Source: a virus. From it: DNA of 39,453 nucleotides. The position numbers and the translations under genes are program-made. Of the stretch, positions 245 to 13,223 are shown piece after piece. Under the pieces are notes generated by a model. The model saw only the letters and a program-made list of their open reading frames with translations, was not told the DNA's origin and did no database searches. Location of the stretch: positions 1 to 39,453 of the IMG/VR virus record IMGVR_UViG_3300014497_000016. The stretch is one strand, 5' to 3'. Numbering within the stretch: the stretch's first letter is position 1; each line of letters starts with the position of its first letter.

Positions 245-1164
245 GAGAACTCACCTCGGATGAGCGCGCCCTCGCCGAAGCGATGTCCGACGTGTCCGAG
301 CTGGCGTACTGCGCTGGCTGGATGCAGGACACGGAGTACGAGGTGTGGCGTCTCCTCCACGAGGGCGGAAGCTGGGGGCAAGCAGACGCCGAGCATCTCG
401 CGCCGCTCCTCGCCGACGTGCGGGCCGCGTTCGACCGGGCTGGCTGCTGGATCGTGTGGGACGACGAGCACGAGGAACAGCCCATCACGCTCGGCACGTG
501 GCGCTCCAAGTACCGGGCGTGGGCTGCGCGGCACGGCAAGGAGGACGCATCCGTGACGGACGGGATGGTGGTGTGGCTGCGGGAGACCCTGGATGCGGCC
601 CAGCGGGACGCGGAAGCTGCAAGCGGGGGAACCGTGGTCGGTGGACCCGGCGCCTGGTTGCCTTCGCCTGCTGGCGACGAGTGGGAGGCATCCCGCAGCG
701 AACACGGTGACGAGGAACTCCTCGTTGCTCTCCGTCCCGGCTTGCCGCGACCGCCGGACGTGATGAGTGGCATGTGGGGCGCCGTGGTCTCAGCCGTGCC
801 TGACGGCGCGGACTCTGACGCGTGGTCGCCTATGCCGCAGTTCGTGCATGCGGCCCGGCATGACCCTGCCGCCGTGCTGCGCCGCATTGCCGCCGACCGG
901 AAGACCCTCGAAGAGCACAAGCCCACACCTGCCGACTTCGATGGGATCTGCAGGTGCCTCGTCTGCGGCTGCTACACCATCCGCCCCGGCCTGGGGCCGG
1001 TCGGCTACCAGAAGGTCTGGCCGTGCCCCACCATCCGCAACCTCGCCGAGGGCTGGGGCTGGACCGAGGAGACGAAGAAGCCCGACTGGCCGGAGTGCAT
1101 GTGCACCCCCTCAGGCGAGTGCGGCAGATGCTGGGAGAAACGGCAGCGAGAGGCAGCGCCGTGA
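241..1164 (+). CDS. hypothetical protein with DUF6221-like Cys C-terminus, 307 aa
   Basis: The ATG at 241 is chosen because it overlaps the previous stop. An upstream in-frame ATG at 226 would lie inside the previous gene. Residues 1-110 look helical and unlike anything I recognise. The C-terminal third carries a run with FVHAARHDPAAVLRRIAADR, then CRCLVCG, YPCP-like WPCPTIRNLAEGW, and a final cluster CMC-x6-CGRC. The HAARHDPAAVLR plus late Cys pattern resembles the DUF6221 family common in Streptomyces, whose role is unknown. A zinc-bound fold is likely. It ends in a GTGA overlap with the next gene at 1161. Confidence 0.75.
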   Translation: MRELTSDERALAEAMSDVSELAYCAGWMQDTEYEVWRLLHEGGSWGQADAEHLAPLLADVRAAFDRAGCWIVWDDEHEEQPITLGTWRSKYRAWAARHGKEDASVTDGMVVWLRETLDAAQRDAEAASGGTVVGGPGAWLPSPAGDEWEASRSEHGDEELLVALRPGLPRPPDVMSGMWGAVVSAVPDGADSDAWSPMPQFVHAARHDPAAVLRRIAADRKTLEEHKPTPADFDGICRCLVCGCYTIRPGLGPVGYQKVWPCPTIRNLAEGWGWTEETKKPDWPECMCTPSGECGRCWEKRQREAAP

Positions 1165-1570
1165 CCGATGCCCTGATGATGCGGCTTCTGGCCTCCGGAG
1201 CCCTCGCGCCCCCGAATCACCTCGACCCACCCCACCAGTGCTGCTGGATCGTTGACCAGAGTTACGAGCAGTGCGGCCTGTGGTGCGGCCACGACGGCGA
1301 CCACACCCCGGACCACATAGGCGACTACCTCACCGTCACGACGCCCGTCATTCACCCGCTCGACATGCTGCGCCTGAACTCCCTGATGCGCGCCAGGCAG
1401 TGGGATCGCCTCCGCTGCCCACTCTGTGGTGCGGGCCGAGAGTCCTTTACGCTCACGTTCGACTGCGAAGGCTTCATCGGCCGCTTCTCGACGACGGGGA
1501 CCATGGCGGCTACGAGCGCCTATGGCGGTTCGGTCCATGCGGCTGCGAGGGCCGCGAACTCTTGCGCTAG
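1161..1570 (+). CDS. zinc-motif hypothetical protein, apparently frameshifted near 1487
   Basis: The GTG at 1161 overlaps the previous stop. The first ~108 residues are protein-like, with CCW, QCGLWCGHDGDH and a zinc-knuckle CPLCG near residue 92. After about 1487 this frame loses sense (Ala/Ser/Arg-rich) yet stays open to 2468. The -1 frame continues sensibly with DDGDHGGYERLWRFGPCGC and stops at 1568-1570. The natural product is therefore probably about 136 aa, made from both frames. Likely causes are an indel mutation or sequence error. No classic slippery heptamer is visible. Role unknown. Confidence 0.5.
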
Positions 1571-1594
1571 CACCCGACTGCTAGCTGCGGGTGC
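1566..1594. promoter_or_regulatory. GCTAGC direct repeat with inverted repeat, putative operator
   Basis: GCTAGC occurs at 1566-1571 and 1580-1585, 14 bases apart. An inverted repeat GCACCCG / CGGGTGC (1570-1576 and 1588-1594, loop 11) overlaps it. It lies just before the small gene at 1636. Promoter or operator use is inferred; the stop of the preceding gene falls inside it. Confidence 0.4.
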
Positions 1595-1635
1595 ACAATG
1601 GGCCCACAACCCTCATGCACCACGGGAGGCCCAAC

Positions 1636-1794
1636 GTGCCCGAGATTCCGCAGGACCCTCTCACCGAACTTGCCGCAGGCGCCGTCCAGCTCCACGAACT
1701 CTTCCTCGCCCAAGTCGCGGCAGGATTCACGGAGCAGCAGGCCATGCAGATCGTCATAGCCGTCCTCACCGGAGGCATGGGAGGCAGGCAGTGA
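1636..1794 (+). CDS. small hypothetical helical protein, 52 aa
   Basis: The GTG at 1636 follows a good ribosome site (GGGAGG at 1624-1629). The product is almost one amphipathic helix pair (LTELAAGAVQLHELFLAQV, then a segment ending MQIVIAVLTGGMGG), like many short Streptomyces and phage proteins of unknown role. It overlaps the next gene by GTGA (1791-1794). An upstream in-frame ATG at 1597 lies inside the putative operator and lacks a ribosome site. Confidence 0.6.
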   Translation: MPEIPQDPLTELAAGAVQLHELFLAQVAAGFTEQQAMQIVIAVLTGGMGGRQ

Positions 1795-2468
1795 GCGACG
1801 AGCAGGAACCCGCCTACCGCTGCACCCACTGCCCCCGCCTCCTCCACGCCAAGGAACTCGGGCGGCCCGTCTGCTTCGTCTGCGAAGACCGAGCCACCGA
1901 ACAAGTCCGAGTGTTCCCCGACTTCTACCGCCGGCTTGAGGCCGCACTCCGCCCGGGCCGCGCGCCGGGCCCCACCGGCCGTGTTACGACGAGCCGCAGC
2001 GCGCCGCTTCCCGTCGCCCTCCAACCGCTCAGTCTCCGCGGCCCGGGCGGGATCGTTTCGATGCTGTTGGGGATCGAGCAGCGGTGGCGGATCGCTCTCG
2101 ACTGGGAGCAGTTGCCCGTTCGTGGCGGGTACGAGGCCAGTCTCGCCGGGACGGTTGAGGTGATCGTCAACAACATGCGGTGGGCGTGCGCCGAGTACCC
2201 CTACGTCGCCCCTGACTTGAAGCTGATCGGAGTCCTGCACCGGCAGGCCGAAGCGATCGTCAACGACGTCCCCGATCAGCGCGTCCCTATCGGCGTATGT
2301 CCGGTCGTCGACGACGAAACCGGCGCACCGTGCGGGGAACGGCTGAAGGTGTCGCCGTTCGCGCTGCTGATCCGCTGCAACGGGTGCGGGACGCGATGGG
2401 GCCGCGACGAATGGCTGCGACTCGGGGCTGAGTTGCGGGGGCTCCCGGAGCCAGTTGTGGCGGCATAG
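1791..2468 (+). CDS. zinc-ribbon hypothetical protein, 225 aa
   Basis: GTG start overlapping the previous stop. Two candidate metal sites are visible. The N-terminal one is YRCTHC-x13-CFVC (residues 9-30). The C-terminal one is CPVVDDETGAPCGERL followed by CNGCG (about residues 169-205). Between them is a helical domain containing GIEQRWRIALDWEQL and VNNMRWACAEYPYV. This architecture is common among small-molecule-free, DNA-associated hypotheticals of Streptomyces phages and plasmids, but no function is established to my knowledge. It is the last plus-strand gene before the repeat array, which begins within a few bases of its stop. Confidence 0.75.
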   Translation: MSDEQEPAYRCTHCPRLLHAKELGRPVCFVCEDRATEQVRVFPDFYRRLEAALRPGRAPGPTGRVTTSRSAPLPVALQPLSLRGPGGIVSMLLGIEQRWRIALDWEQLPVRGGYEASLAGTVEVIVNNMRWACAEYPYVAPDLKLIGVLHRQAEAIVNDVPDQRVPIGVCPVVDDETGAPCGERLKVSPFALLIRCNGCGTRWGRDEWLRLGAELRGLPEPVVAA

Positions 2469-2471
2469 GAA

Positions 2472-3006
2472 GCCCTACGCCGCCACTGTCGTGCCTGCCG
2501 TGGCAAGCCACGTCCCGCCCCGCCGAGCCGTGCCGAGACAAGCCGTGCCTGCCAGGCCGAGCCCTGCCACGCCTGGACGGGCCCAGTCATGCCGAGCCAA
2601 ACCGCGCCTGCCGAGCCCCGCCCAACCCTGCCGGACCATGCCATACCTGGACGGACCTAGCCTGCCGTACCTCGCCTGGCAATGCCTCGCCTAGCCACAC
2701 CATGCCTGCCCTACCGCGCCGCGCCTGACCGTGCCTGAACCCGCCCAGCCGCGCCTGCCATACCCTACCGAGCCCAACCCAACCCGACCATGCACCGCCT
2801 GGACCCGCCTGCCAGACCGAGACAAGACCCGCCGGACCTAGCCGAACCGCGCCTGCCACGCCGTGCCGACCTTGCCACGACAGATCGCGCCTAACCTTGC
2901 CTGCCGCGCGAAGCCGTGCCATGACGTTCCTGGACACACCGCGCCGAACCCAGCCTGCCGAACGATGCCCTGCCAAGCCCTGAACTGCCTTACCGGGCCT
3001 GCCACG
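2472..3006 (-). repeat. phased degenerate pentanucleotide array with GCCTGCC anchors
   Basis: On the plus strand, GCCTGCC occurs eleven times, starting at 2493, 2547, 2606, 2660, 2704, 2753, 2807, 2851, 2899, 2953 and 2997. Spacings are 54, 59, 54, 44, 49, 54, 44, 48, 54 and 44. Nine of these ten equal 4+5n. Each interval parses as GCCT followed by 8-11 pentamers. I count 92 pentamers, about 72 beginning GCC or ACC; nearly all others differ by one base, most often GAC. The 48-base interval has one further 4-base step (CCTT). Read on the strand of the adjoining operon the unit is NNGGY with anchor GGCAGGC. The last unit touches the stop codon of the minus-strand gene at 3007. Open frames here are by-products of the 15-base (5-codon) periodicity. 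Function unknown; assigned strand reflects probable co-transcription. Confidence 0.93.
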
Positions 3007-3429
3007 TCACGCGGCGTCGAGATCTCGCCGCACCATCTCGACGAATTCCGCGAACTCCTCGTACTTCCGTCGGAGCGTCTTCCACTCACGCTCCATGTTG
3101 GCGAGAGCCAGCTTGGTGCGGAAAGGGTCCTCGGCAACTTCCTCGACCGGGTCGAAGACGTGACCTTCACCAGCCTGGATGGCGACGAACTTCCGGACCA
3201 GCCTCGGAGGGCCATCGCCATCAGACCGATAGGCAACCTTCGCCTTCTGAATCAGAACGTGAGCCTGCTCACGGCGATACTTCTCGGCCGCGACAGAGTC
3301 GTCCCACTCGAACCGCGAATGCAGCGGATGCGTCGAGTCCCGGGCTGCGTCTACCACGGCTTCAGGCGTCAACACCCCGCCGTTCGCCGACCGAATCGAC
3401 AGAAGCAGATCCACCGTATTCACGGTCAT
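3007..3429 (-). CDS. small helical charged protein next to the array, 140 aa
   Basis: The ATG at 3429 overlaps the stop of the upstream gene as ATGA, so the two are a coupled operon. The protein is nearly all helical and strongly charged. Notable segments are GGVLTPEAVVDAARD (about 17-31), FEWDDSVAAEKYRREQA (40-56) and a C-terminal coiled-coil-like stretch with MEREWKTLRRKYEEF. The aromatic-acidic FEWDD and YRREQA blocks look like a conserved phage family that I recall only as hypothetical. There is no catalytic motif. The pentamer array begins at its stop codon, which suggests they share a transcript. It may be a partner or adaptor of the 211-aa protein. Function not known. Confidence 0.85.
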   Translation of the reverse strand: MTVNTVDLLLSIRSANGGVLTPEAVVDAARDSTHPLHSRFEWDDSVAAEKYRREQAHVLIQKAKVAYRSDGDGPPRLVRKFVAIQAGEGHVFDPVEEVAEDPFRTKLALANMEREWKTLRRKYEEFAEFVEMVRRDLDAA

Positions 3430-4061
3430 GCAGCCACCAACTCCCCGGAGTCCCTGATGATTTCTACCTCACGCGCCGGGTCCACCCGGTAGGTGCCGAA
3501 GTCGCCGTCCTTCTCCGGGCGCCACTCGCCGACCCCAACGCCCATCCCGCCCGCGTCGATGAGCGAGAGCACCGAGCCCTGTGTGAGCGCCGAGGTGACG
3601 TAGCGGATCTCCAGGGTCGTGCGCCACTCGGAGAACTGCGGCCGGTAGCGCAGGTCCGAGCCGTTCCGGCCGACCGTGACGACGTCCTCACGCATCAGAG
3701 GGTCGCCCTCGATGCGGGTCAGTGCGCGGCCGTCGTCGCCTTCCTCGCCGTGGATGAACAGGAACTGCTTCAGGGCCGTCATGGTGACGCCCTGATAGAA
3801 GCGGGCGCCGCCGACGGTTGCCGCCTTGAAGGCGAGGGCAGGAAAGCCGAAACCGCCGTCCTTCAGCCGGTAGAACGCGGCCTCGTATTCGGCGTTCGGG
3901 TCCTTGGCCTGCTTCGGTGACTTCCGGCCCTGCATGGCGTCCAGCATCTGCCGCTTCGCTTTTTCGCTGAAGCGGTGAACGATGAGGGGGCTCGTTCCGA
4001 CGATGGGAACGAGGAGCGTTTCGGTGCCTACTCGGGTGATTTCGATCGCGGCGTCGGACAT
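3426..4061 (-). CDS. array-associated protein with glycine-rich loop, 211 aa
   Basis: The ATG at 4061 is preceded by AAGGGG about 8 bases upstream. The longer frame to 4247 runs through the promoter and is rejected. Visible features are a beta-like start LVPIVGTSPLIVHRFSEKAK (about 18-37), a basic loop with KSPKQAKDP, then FPALAFKAATVGGARF (about 74-89), a beta-rich second half, and a late loop GMGVGVGEWRPEKDGDFG. The order of strand, helix, F-P-x4-FK-x2 turn and terminal glycine-rich strand is reminiscent of RAMP (Cas7-type) RNA-binding folds, but this is inference without a profile search. It is not a recombinase or nuclease by any motif I can see. First gene of the minus operon that runs into the repeat array. 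Confidence 0.85.
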   Translation of the reverse strand: MSDAAIEITRVGTETLLVPIVGTSPLIVHRFSEKAKRQMLDAMQGRKSPKQAKDPNAEYEAAFYRLKDGGFGFPALAFKAATVGGARFYQGVTMTALKQFLFIHGEEGDDGRALTRIEGDPLMREDVVTVGRNGSDLRYRPQFSEWRTTLEIRYVTSALTQGSVLSLIDAGGMGVGVGEWRPEKDGDFGTYRVDPAREVEIIRDSGELVAA

Positions 4062-12212: not shown

Positions 12213-12382
12213 GACTCGTCTTGCTGTACCGCCTTCTCAGCGATGGAGAGCGGGACGACCGCCGCCACACGGCGCCCGCGACTGGTCACGAAGGTGATCC
12301 GGTTTCGGACCGCCGCGTTGATCACGTCCGCCAGGTTCGTGCGCACTTCGGCGGTGCTCATCTCGACAGGCTCTTCTTTCAT
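12209..12382 (-). CDS. Phd/YefM-family antitoxin, apparently without toxin, 57 aa
   Basis: ATG at 12382 (a longer frame runs to 12427 through the operator). The sequence EMSTAEVRTNLADVINAAV-x5-TFVTSRGRRVAAVVPL is the classic Phd/YefM DNA-binding and dimer domain. In type II toxin-antitoxin pairs such a protein represses its operon and neutralises a RelE/YoeB or Doc toxin through a C-terminal tail. Here the tail is very short (about ten residues) and no toxin gene follows: the next sequence is the converging 37-aa gene and the portal. It may be a solitary antitoxin protecting against host toxins, or a remnant. Regularly spaced GTAC sites lie just upstream. Confidence 0.85.
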   Translation of the reverse strand: MKEEPVEMSTAEVRTNLADVINAAVRNRITFVTSRGRRVAAVVPLSIAEKAVQQDES

Positions 12383-12390
12383 GACGCCAG

Positions 12391-12436
12391 AGTACAGAGA
12401 AGCCCTTCCAGGTACACTGATGTACATGAATGTACA
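12391..12436 (-). promoter_or_regulatory. GTAC-core operator cluster upstream of the antitoxin
   Basis: GTAC cores fall at 12392, 12412, 12422 and 12432, that is 20, 10 and 10 bases apart, all on one face of the helix. Two are full TGTACA palindromes (12421-12426 and 12431-12436). TGTACA is the known core of YefM-YoeB operators, so autoregulation by the adjoining antitoxin is likely. The cluster overlaps the start codon of the divergent endonuclease gene. Confidence 0.7.
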
Positions 12437-13223
12437 AGGCGGGATGGCCTGGATCTACACACTGAGCGACCCGCGGTCGGGCGAAGTTCGCTATGTCGGA
12501 GTCACAACTCGCTCACTGGCCGCGCGACTTCGAGGCCATATCTCTGATGCCGGTCGCCAAGACCACAAGAGTCGGTGGATCCGCTCTCTACTGAGAGCGG
12601 GCGTCTCGCCCTTGATGACGGAGATCGAGGTCGTTCCAATCGAGACCCACGGGGAGGCAGAACGCCGATGGATCGCCGCATACCGGGCCAAGGGCGCGCG
12701 CCTGACTAACGCCACCGACGGCGGCCCCGGGACCCTGGGTCACGTTCTTTCCCCCGAGGCTCGGGAGCGCATCCGGCAAGCTGCTCTCAAACGCATGAAA
12801 GAGCCCGCCCGTCGCGAAGCCGTAAGCCGAGTACACAAGGGCAAGACCATCCCTGATGCGACAAAGAAGGCGGTCTCCGAAGCTGCCACCAAGCGGTGGG
12901 CTGCCTGGCGCGCGGCAGGCAGCGTCACCTCAGACGAAACACGAGCCAAGCTCAGCGAGCTGGCCAAGGCGCGGGACCTCCAGCCCATGAACAACCCCGC
13001 GTCTCAGGCCAAGGTCGCTGAAGCTAAACGGCAGTGGTGGGACGAGTGGCGCGCGCAGGGGCGCCCCGGCCGGAAGACTCACTGCCCGCAGGGCCACCCA
13101 TACGACGAAGCGAACACGGCGCTCGAACGGGGCGGCAATCGAAAGACACCCGGCCGTAAGTGTCGGACCTGCATGCGAGAGCGCGCACGAGCTCGACGCG
13201 AGGCCGCTCGCCGGATTCCCTGA
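12420..13223 (+). CDS. GIY-YIG homing endonuclease with NUMOD3-like repeats, 267 aa
   Basis: Start ATG at 12420, or 12426. The GIY-YIG nuclease domain is at the N-terminus: WIYTLSDP, VRYVGVTTRSLAARLRGHI, then RWIRSLLRAG and the Glu of EAERRWIAAY. The middle carries basic helical SPEARERIRQAA and GKTIPDATKKAVSEAA repeats, like NUMOD3 DNA-binding modules. The C-terminus has HCPQGHPYDEANT and CRTCMRERARARR, a zinc-binding end typical of free-standing phage homing enzymes. It has no ribosome site and starts inside the antitoxin operator. As a mobile gene it explains the break in the head operon between portal and MuF. Confidence 0.9.
   Translation: MYMNVQGGMAWIYTLSDPRSGEVRYVGVTTRSLAARLRGHISDAGRQDHKSRWIRSLLRAGVSPLMTEIEVVPIETHGEAERRWIAAYRAKGARLTNATDGGPGTLGHVLSPEARERIRQAALKRMKEPARREAVSRVHKGKTIPDATKKAVSEAATKRWAAWRAAGSVTSDETRAKLSELAKARDLQPMNNPASQAKVAEAKRQWWDEWRAQGRPGRKTHCPQGHPYDEANTALERGGNRKTPGRKCRTCMRERARARREAARRIP

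Follow-up and report, generated by a model that had tools for sequence, protein, structure and literature searches.

The 39,453-nucleotide stretch analysed here, the whole of which we call the window (IMG/VR virus record IMGVR_UViG_3300014497_000016, positions 1 to 39,453), carries at 2493-3003 on its minus strand an array of GGY-type triplets separated by freely varying dinucleotides (NN), next to a gene for a Cas7-like protein. We conclude that this array very probably supplies the guide RNAs of a VIPR (Viral Interference Programmable Repeat) system, and that about ten RNA guides, together with the Cas7-like protein, most likely serve an actinobacterial phage to find and silence rival phages. 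VIPR was described in a 2026 preprint (PMC13142463; bioRxiv 2026.04.26.720920), which lists as its parts the protein Vipr (a RAMP homologue with an RRM core and a glycine-rich loop), a gene for an accessory protein, and guide RNAs, called vrRNAs, in which GGY alternates with NN. According to the preprint, NN pairs recognise double-stranded DNA by skipping one base, mostly at a wobble position, between pairs, and the complex represses transcription and acts against competing phages, as shown for SUSP1 VIPR; the systems occur mainly in phages and prophages. Each vrRNA has 9-16 repeats, architectures vary between the types, of which seven are published, noncontiguous reading of DNA is reported for the first time in an RNA-guided system, and VIPR is proposed as a CRISPR ancestor. 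The initial annotation of the window, made from the sequence alone, had named no accepted function for such arrays, a statement that this preprint has overtaken.

Structure of the array

On the minus strand, the array comprises 105 in-phase triplets, 92 free NN dinucleotides and twelve one-base spacers, each of which makes a 4-base step. Exactly GGC or GGT is found in 85 of the 105 triplets (the initial annotation counted 72 of 92 units with the complementary GCC or ACC, a slightly different count with the same proportion), and the two NN positions are nearly random at 1.97 and 1.96 bits, with all 16 dinucleotides present. Eleven of the spacers are A, forming GGC-A-GGC, and one is C. On the plus strand, the eleven A spacers appear as GCCTGCC anchors, at 2493, 2547, 2606, 2660, 2704, 2753, 2807, 2851, 2899, 2953 and 2997; the anchor spacings reported earlier were reproduced exactly, and the 48-base interval that had been put down to an extra 4-base step is indeed the one holding the C spacer. 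Successive GGCA steps are separated by 8-11 NN pairs (9-12 GGY), and there was no constant repeat beyond the 7-base GGCAGGC step.

To detect such arrays, we scanned by dynamic programming for RCC units that follow one another in steps of 5 or 4 bases, with 20 Markov versions of the whole window as controls; reversed sequence was dropped as a null, since reversal preserves the 5-base period. The scan returned a single array in the window, at 2493-3003, with 105 units and a score of 249.5, against a control peak of 16.4. In the autocorrelation check proposed in the initial annotation, the array lay above every other tested 535-base piece of the window at lags 5, 10, 15, 20 and onward, and likewise at lags 4, 14, 19, 24 and so on to 44, 49 and 54. 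Shuffles fell short as well, with a lag-5 identity of at most 0.385 (0.494 in the array) and with GCCTGCC occurring 0.96 times on average and at most 6 times in Markov shuffles of the array region, versus 11 observed. The earlier judgements that this is not simple low complexity, the NN letters being random while phase is kept, and that phase and spacing are under selection are upheld. Tandem Repeats Finder, the other proposed check, saw almost nothing of the array because its units differ at two of five positions. Rfam and tRNA searches did not recognise the array, and no rho-independent terminator or sigma-70 promoter above chance was found around it. A protein-coding reading was rejected, since every frame contains stops and the lengths of the intervals are not divisible by three. 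Functionless drift or slippage of simple sequence in GC-rich DNA would fit the low sequence complexity, but phase is held over 500 bases despite random NN letters, and the same architecture is maintained beside the relatives of one gene in genomes with a GC content of 0.43-0.72 (43% to 72%); this explanation is already refuted, and we regard its probability as negligible.

The Vipr gene, its partner and their linkage to arrays

Two genes lie just upstream of the array on the same strand, and both belong to phage families without known function:

3426..4061, minus: vipr gene, 211 aa, phrog_4652; Cas7/Csm3-like RAMP with the glycine-rich loop GVGVGEWRPEKDGDFGTY
3007..3429, minus: putative vap (VIPR accessory) gene, 140 aa, phrog_15946; conserved LHSRFEWDD motif
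2493..3003, minus: vrRNA (guide) array, 105 GGY-type triplets, 92 NN, 12 one-base spacers

The profile of the 211-aa family matches one solved structure by sequence, 36pp_D, the "SUSP1 Vipr protein" (E=1.2e-11), and hhalign against the vipr gene of the SUSP1 genome (KT454805) gave E=6.8e-12, with the alignment running over RYRPxFxxW...GVGEWRP...G.F. An AlphaFold model of the protein (pLDDT 92.8) resembles Csm3/Cas7 RAMPs, with 6xn3_F as the best match (E=9.9e-6, probability 1.00), and its structure matches at E<=1e-3, 38 in number, belong to RAMP proteins or complexes of CRISPR systems. The glycine-rich loop is conserved. Judged by homology and modelled fold, the 211-aa gene, two places upstream of the array, is the gene that encodes the Vipr protein; given this match and the description of VIPR in the preprint text, we therefore take the window to hold a VIPR locus. 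The tie between the array and this adjacent RAMP-like gene had been absent from the initial interpretation. The stop codon of vipr overlaps the start of the 140-aa gene, which is thereby coupled to it and is conserved in relatives, and the array starts three bases past the stop codon of the 140-aa gene; based on position and co-conservation, the latter is likely the accessory gene vap. Pfam assigned no family to either protein, PADLOC found nothing at the locus, and neither showed a cas family among the five nearest genes.

We then considered how regularly these genes and arrays occur together. The profile of the 211-aa gene has at least 459 relatives, and among 114 non-redundant loci chosen by gene homology, an array lies no more than 3 kb from vipr in 108; of the six array-less loci, two (L037, L070) are on contigs that stop shortly past the genes. 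An array also stands beside the 140-aa gene or its partner in all 19 IMG/VR loci found by 140-aa homology. Similar stretches do therefore occur in other phages, as the initial annotation stated, and they accompany the relatives of the neighbouring genes, which it had named as a place to look. No array lay more than 3 kb from vipr in 1.09 Mb. The GGY triplets are on the vipr sense strand in 123 of 125 arrays, in agreement with the earlier choice of the minus strand, read as (NNGGY)n with GGCAGGC anchors, as the meaningful one; a strong array upstream of vipr in the locus L054 (2716-2984) is one of only two in the opposite orientation. Placement is variable: 26 arrays precede the 211-aa gene, 17 fall between the genes and 73 lie downstream of the second gene. 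Two loci carry arrays around both genes, and two related phages (L010, 3485-5467; L011, 3654-5442) have three co-oriented arrays each: before vipr, in the vipr-vap gap and after vap. Across relatives the step is GGC-A-GGC, with A in 79%, and the main peak of the distance between steps is at 8-12 pentamers, with a mode of 10. Two arrays are much longer than that of the window, with about 470 units (L055, 5905-8158) and about 350 units (L065, 7058-8755). When loci were picked by the array pattern alone (L145-L264), 30 of 120 had no recognisable vipr gene in the DNA examined; these are truncated contigs, loci with distant vipr types or orphan arrays.

In the phage collection, 34 records encode relatives, chiefly mycobacteriophages of cluster F (genus Cheoctovirus in the records) and Gordonia phages. 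Distant vipr relatives outside actinobacteria were seen in Pseudomonas phage vB_Pae_LESphi2 (OQ594955, 4903-5472) and Cyanophage Cy-LDV1 (BK059895, 31526-32083). Several "hypothetical proteins" are annotated inside guide arrays, in Pippy (gp47), ByChance (gp39), BobaPhett (gp51), Donkeykong (gp48) and UmaThurman (gp40), at L025 5041-5229, L028 5053-5211, L029 5042-5206, L030 4936-5322 and L026 4944-5267; these are probably not genes.

Guide boundaries, guide turnover and candidate targets

To examine how the NN letters relate to other DNA, arrays were cut at the A steps, and the resulting 935 guides were compared with 2 Mb of non-redundant DNA in which arrays were masked. Reading with a 1-base skip gave 45 matches of at least 18 bases, against 0-1 for a skip of 0 or 2 and 0-3 for reversed dinucleotide order, and a separate, similar run gave a similar contrast. 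The matches typically start directly after an A step and do not extend past the next step in any register. We take this as direct evidence that guides begin and end at the anchors, and the window therefore holds about ten guides, listed here in the 5' to 3' direction of the minus strand:

2997..3003, minus: first GGC-A-GGC step (GCCTGCC on plus), 5' boundary of guide 1, three bases past the vap stop codon
2960..2996, minus: guide 1, CC.AA.AG.AG.TT.AG.AT.TC
2906..2952, minus: guide 2, TG.TC.GC.GT.CA.AC.AT.AC.TT.GC
2858..2898, minus: guide 3, AA.TA.GC.CT.GT.AA.C.AC.GT (internal one-base C spacer; 48-base interval)
2814..2850, minus: guide 4, GC.TC.TA.CC.GG.TT.TC.CT
2760..2806, minus: guide 5, GG.CA.GG.AT.CG.TG.TG.TC.AG.AT
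2711..2752, minus: guide 6, GC.TG.GG.CA.AC.CA.GC.GC.AG
2667..2703, minus: guide 7, AT.GT.TA.GA.AT.CA.GA.AC
2613..2659, minus: guide 8, TA.CC.CA.AT.AT.CC.AG.TG.GG.TC
2554..2605, minus: guide 9, GC.TT.TC.AT.TG.CC.CA.GT.AG.TC.CT
2500..2546, minus: guide 10, AC.TT.TC.AC.TC.GG.GG.GT.TT.AC

The skip rule bears on two other explanations. TRAP reads (G/U)AG NN, and the triplet-plus-two spacing of the array is formally like a TRAP site. Considering this likeness, and that the array adjoins a predicted RNA-binding protein, the (NNGGY)n RNA might be a regulatory leader or a sponge for a TRAP-like ring protein, with NN letters that carry no information. We consider this very unlikely: under the 1-base-skip rule, matches between NN letters and target DNA far exceed those of controls, and the neighbouring protein is a RAMP, with no TRAP-like protein among the array's neighbours, which are RAMP-like or without known family. 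An even smaller chance, which we would call minute, goes to a DNA element, such as a replication origin, iterons, or an R-loop or G-quadruplex region, in place of a guide-RNA gene. One strand is strongly G-rich, with GG every five bases, and the arrays of relatives lie near early phage genes, as such an element might; yet array position varies around vipr and vap while orientation stays fixed to vipr, and the hypervariable pairs match other phages' genes.

Comparison of related phages indicates how guides come and go. Donkeykong has two guides that are absent from Pippy, inserted exactly at steps, and BobaPhett has one that is absent from ByChance, again at steps. Gain and loss at steps speaks for the exchange of whole guides and against growth by 5-base units, the copying mechanism that the initial annotation had offered alongside selection; related phages differ by whole GGCA-to-GGCA intervals. 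A guide conserved between Pippy and Donkeykong had no exact match in IMG/VR.

These same observations bear on the possibility that a continuous array gives longer, overlapping vrRNAs, in which the GGCA step would be a register shift inside staggered guides and not a processing boundary. The preprint mentions "staggered arrays with overlapping vrRNAs", which may be the architecture of the window, and no tail or ribozyme lies between the intervals in the window. The matches, however, start right after and stop at A steps, beyond which none extends to either side, whatever the register, and guides are gained and lost at steps, so that we regard overlapping vrRNAs as rather unlikely, though as an explanation to be taken seriously.

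Some of the guides in relatives are directed at VIPR itself. In four loci (L011, L093, L107, L127), the first complete guide finds its match at conserved codons in the vipr genes of other phages, namely those for VLSLIDAGG (antisense), VGVGEWRPEK, EDMVRVGM and EKKGDFGTF. No guide matched the vipr gene of its own phage above control (for example, 13/16 in L107, 16/20 in L011 and 15/20 in L127), as expected if selection acts against self-targeting, and autoregulation by self-targeting was accordingly rejected. The first position of these guides is an observation from four cases, which are few, and we derive no rule from it.

Among cultured phages, the sequences predict a rivalry of Quico against Che8. 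The Quico guide AA.TT.AT.TT.TT.AT.GC.CC.TC.AT agrees with the Che8 tape-measure gene at 19/20 bases, with the skipped bases on wobble positions. The same site occurs in Wachhund, Squirty and Minnie, each at 19/20, and the bases that vary among the four sites are the skipped ones. Quico's own tape-measure gene matches at 14/20, and the controls run on these sequences all had at least 3 mismatches. In about 50 kb of each of Che8, Tweety, Fruitloop and Giles, no array was found.

Among the window's own guides, guide 9 has one exact 20-base match in IMG/VR (21/22 over the whole guide), in contig 3300044712_000982 (L265), inside an open reading frame of a 106-kb actinobacterial-type contig and with skips on wobble bases. 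Given the uncertain total size of that collection, we treat this match as a suggestive one; a search of 179 genomes from a single genus, chosen around the Streptomyces relative, gave no match to guide 9 with up to 2 mismatches. The 17/20 agreement of guide 2 with vipr from Gordonia phage UmaThurman is not above chance in this set, and neither guide 2 nor guide 5 had an exact match in IMG/VR. Guide 7 is identical at 14/16 to a guide in the relative L017.

Elsewhere in the window, the convergent gene beyond the array ends at 2468; it is a 504-aa open reading frame (954-2468, plus strand; phrog_1467) with a conserved, cysteine-containing C-terminal part and a true start probably near residue 280, and a relative of it lies on the far side of the array in L006. 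Terminase and portal genes are present, and an open reading frame at 12243-13223 (plus), between the portal and head-protein genes, matches homing/HNH endonuclease families.

A possible VIPR variant without tails and its significance

Based on these results, we propose the following mechanism. The minus strand would be transcribed together with, or just after, vipr-vap, and transcription through vipr and the 140-aa gene would run directly into the array. From the preprint and the RAMP fold we infer that Vipr coats the RNA with one subunit per five bases, gripping GGY and exposing NN. The NN pairs of one interval would then jointly read double-stranded DNA as NNxNNx..., the skipped base usually being a codon wobble position. 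The GGC-A-GGC step would close one guide and open the next, presumably with processing of the RNA at the steps, to give about ten guides of 8-11 NN pairs in the window, and the complex would be expected to repress genes of competing phages.

With the published VIPR systems, the window and its relatives share a RAMP-type Vipr, one small gene as putative accessory, GGY/NN repeats with hypervariable NN, and a location in phages; the window's family further shares 1-base-skip matches in coding DNA and guides against other VIPR phages. The window differs in its continuous array, punctuated by GGC-A-GGC and lacking a constant 3' tail. Compared with SUSP1 VIPR (Escherichia phage phiSUSP1, KT454805), it is alike in Vipr homology and in the order of vipr followed by the (here putative) accessory gene, and we also count as a likeness that SUSP1 has arrays both upstream and downstream of the genes. 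In contrast, the SUSP1 arrays are separate, with 11-15 GGY units, no 4-base steps and a constant tail each, whereas about 105 units follow one another without a break in the window. Class 1 CRISPR-Cas systems (Csm3/Cas7) share the RAMP fold of the RNA-binding subunit and variable guides that are gained and lost whole; unlike them, the window has no constant repeats and no spacer-acquisition or other cas genes near the array, and its family would read targets noncontiguously.

Several points weigh against assigning the array to VIPR. Sequence similarity to SUSP1 Vipr is restricted to the C-terminal third, the 140-aa protein has no detectable relation to the SUSP1 accessory protein (vap1), and the fold matches of its model amount to a weak winged-helix resemblance. 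SUSP1 vrRNAs are set apart from one another by a constant 3' tail, which the array lacks; in the preprint (PMC13142463), this structured tail is a feature of the SUSP1 clade and not defining for all VIPR types. For this phage the locus is known here at the level of DNA, and its own guides have at most candidate targets, whose identity is uncertain.

The kind of system is thus one already described, in a preprint that appeared a few months earlier, and the tail-less, A-punctuated array may be a variant of it. For such tail-less arrays we put forward a tentative model, on which we are close to evenly divided with a slight lean towards doubt: the A step may be the punctuation of the code, setting the ends of guides and the unit of gain and loss, with a continuous transcript that could carry at least ten guides without repeats, tails or ribozymes; in several phages, the 5'-most guide may be an anti-VIPR guide aimed at conserved vipr codons of rivals, from which the phage's own vipr has diverged to escape.

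What is added to VIPR here is the gain and loss of whole guides at steps, and guides against rivals' vipr that are mismatched to the phage's own, along with a testable cultured pair in Quico and the Che8 tape-measure gene (19/20). It also becomes possible to re-annotate phrog_4652, phrog_15946 and several spurious "hypothetical proteins" within arrays. Together with its relatives, the locus places VIPR in cultured phages of Mycobacterium smegmatis and Gordonia, which are open to ordinary phage genetics, and suggests how guides are delimited without a tail and that they come and go as whole units.
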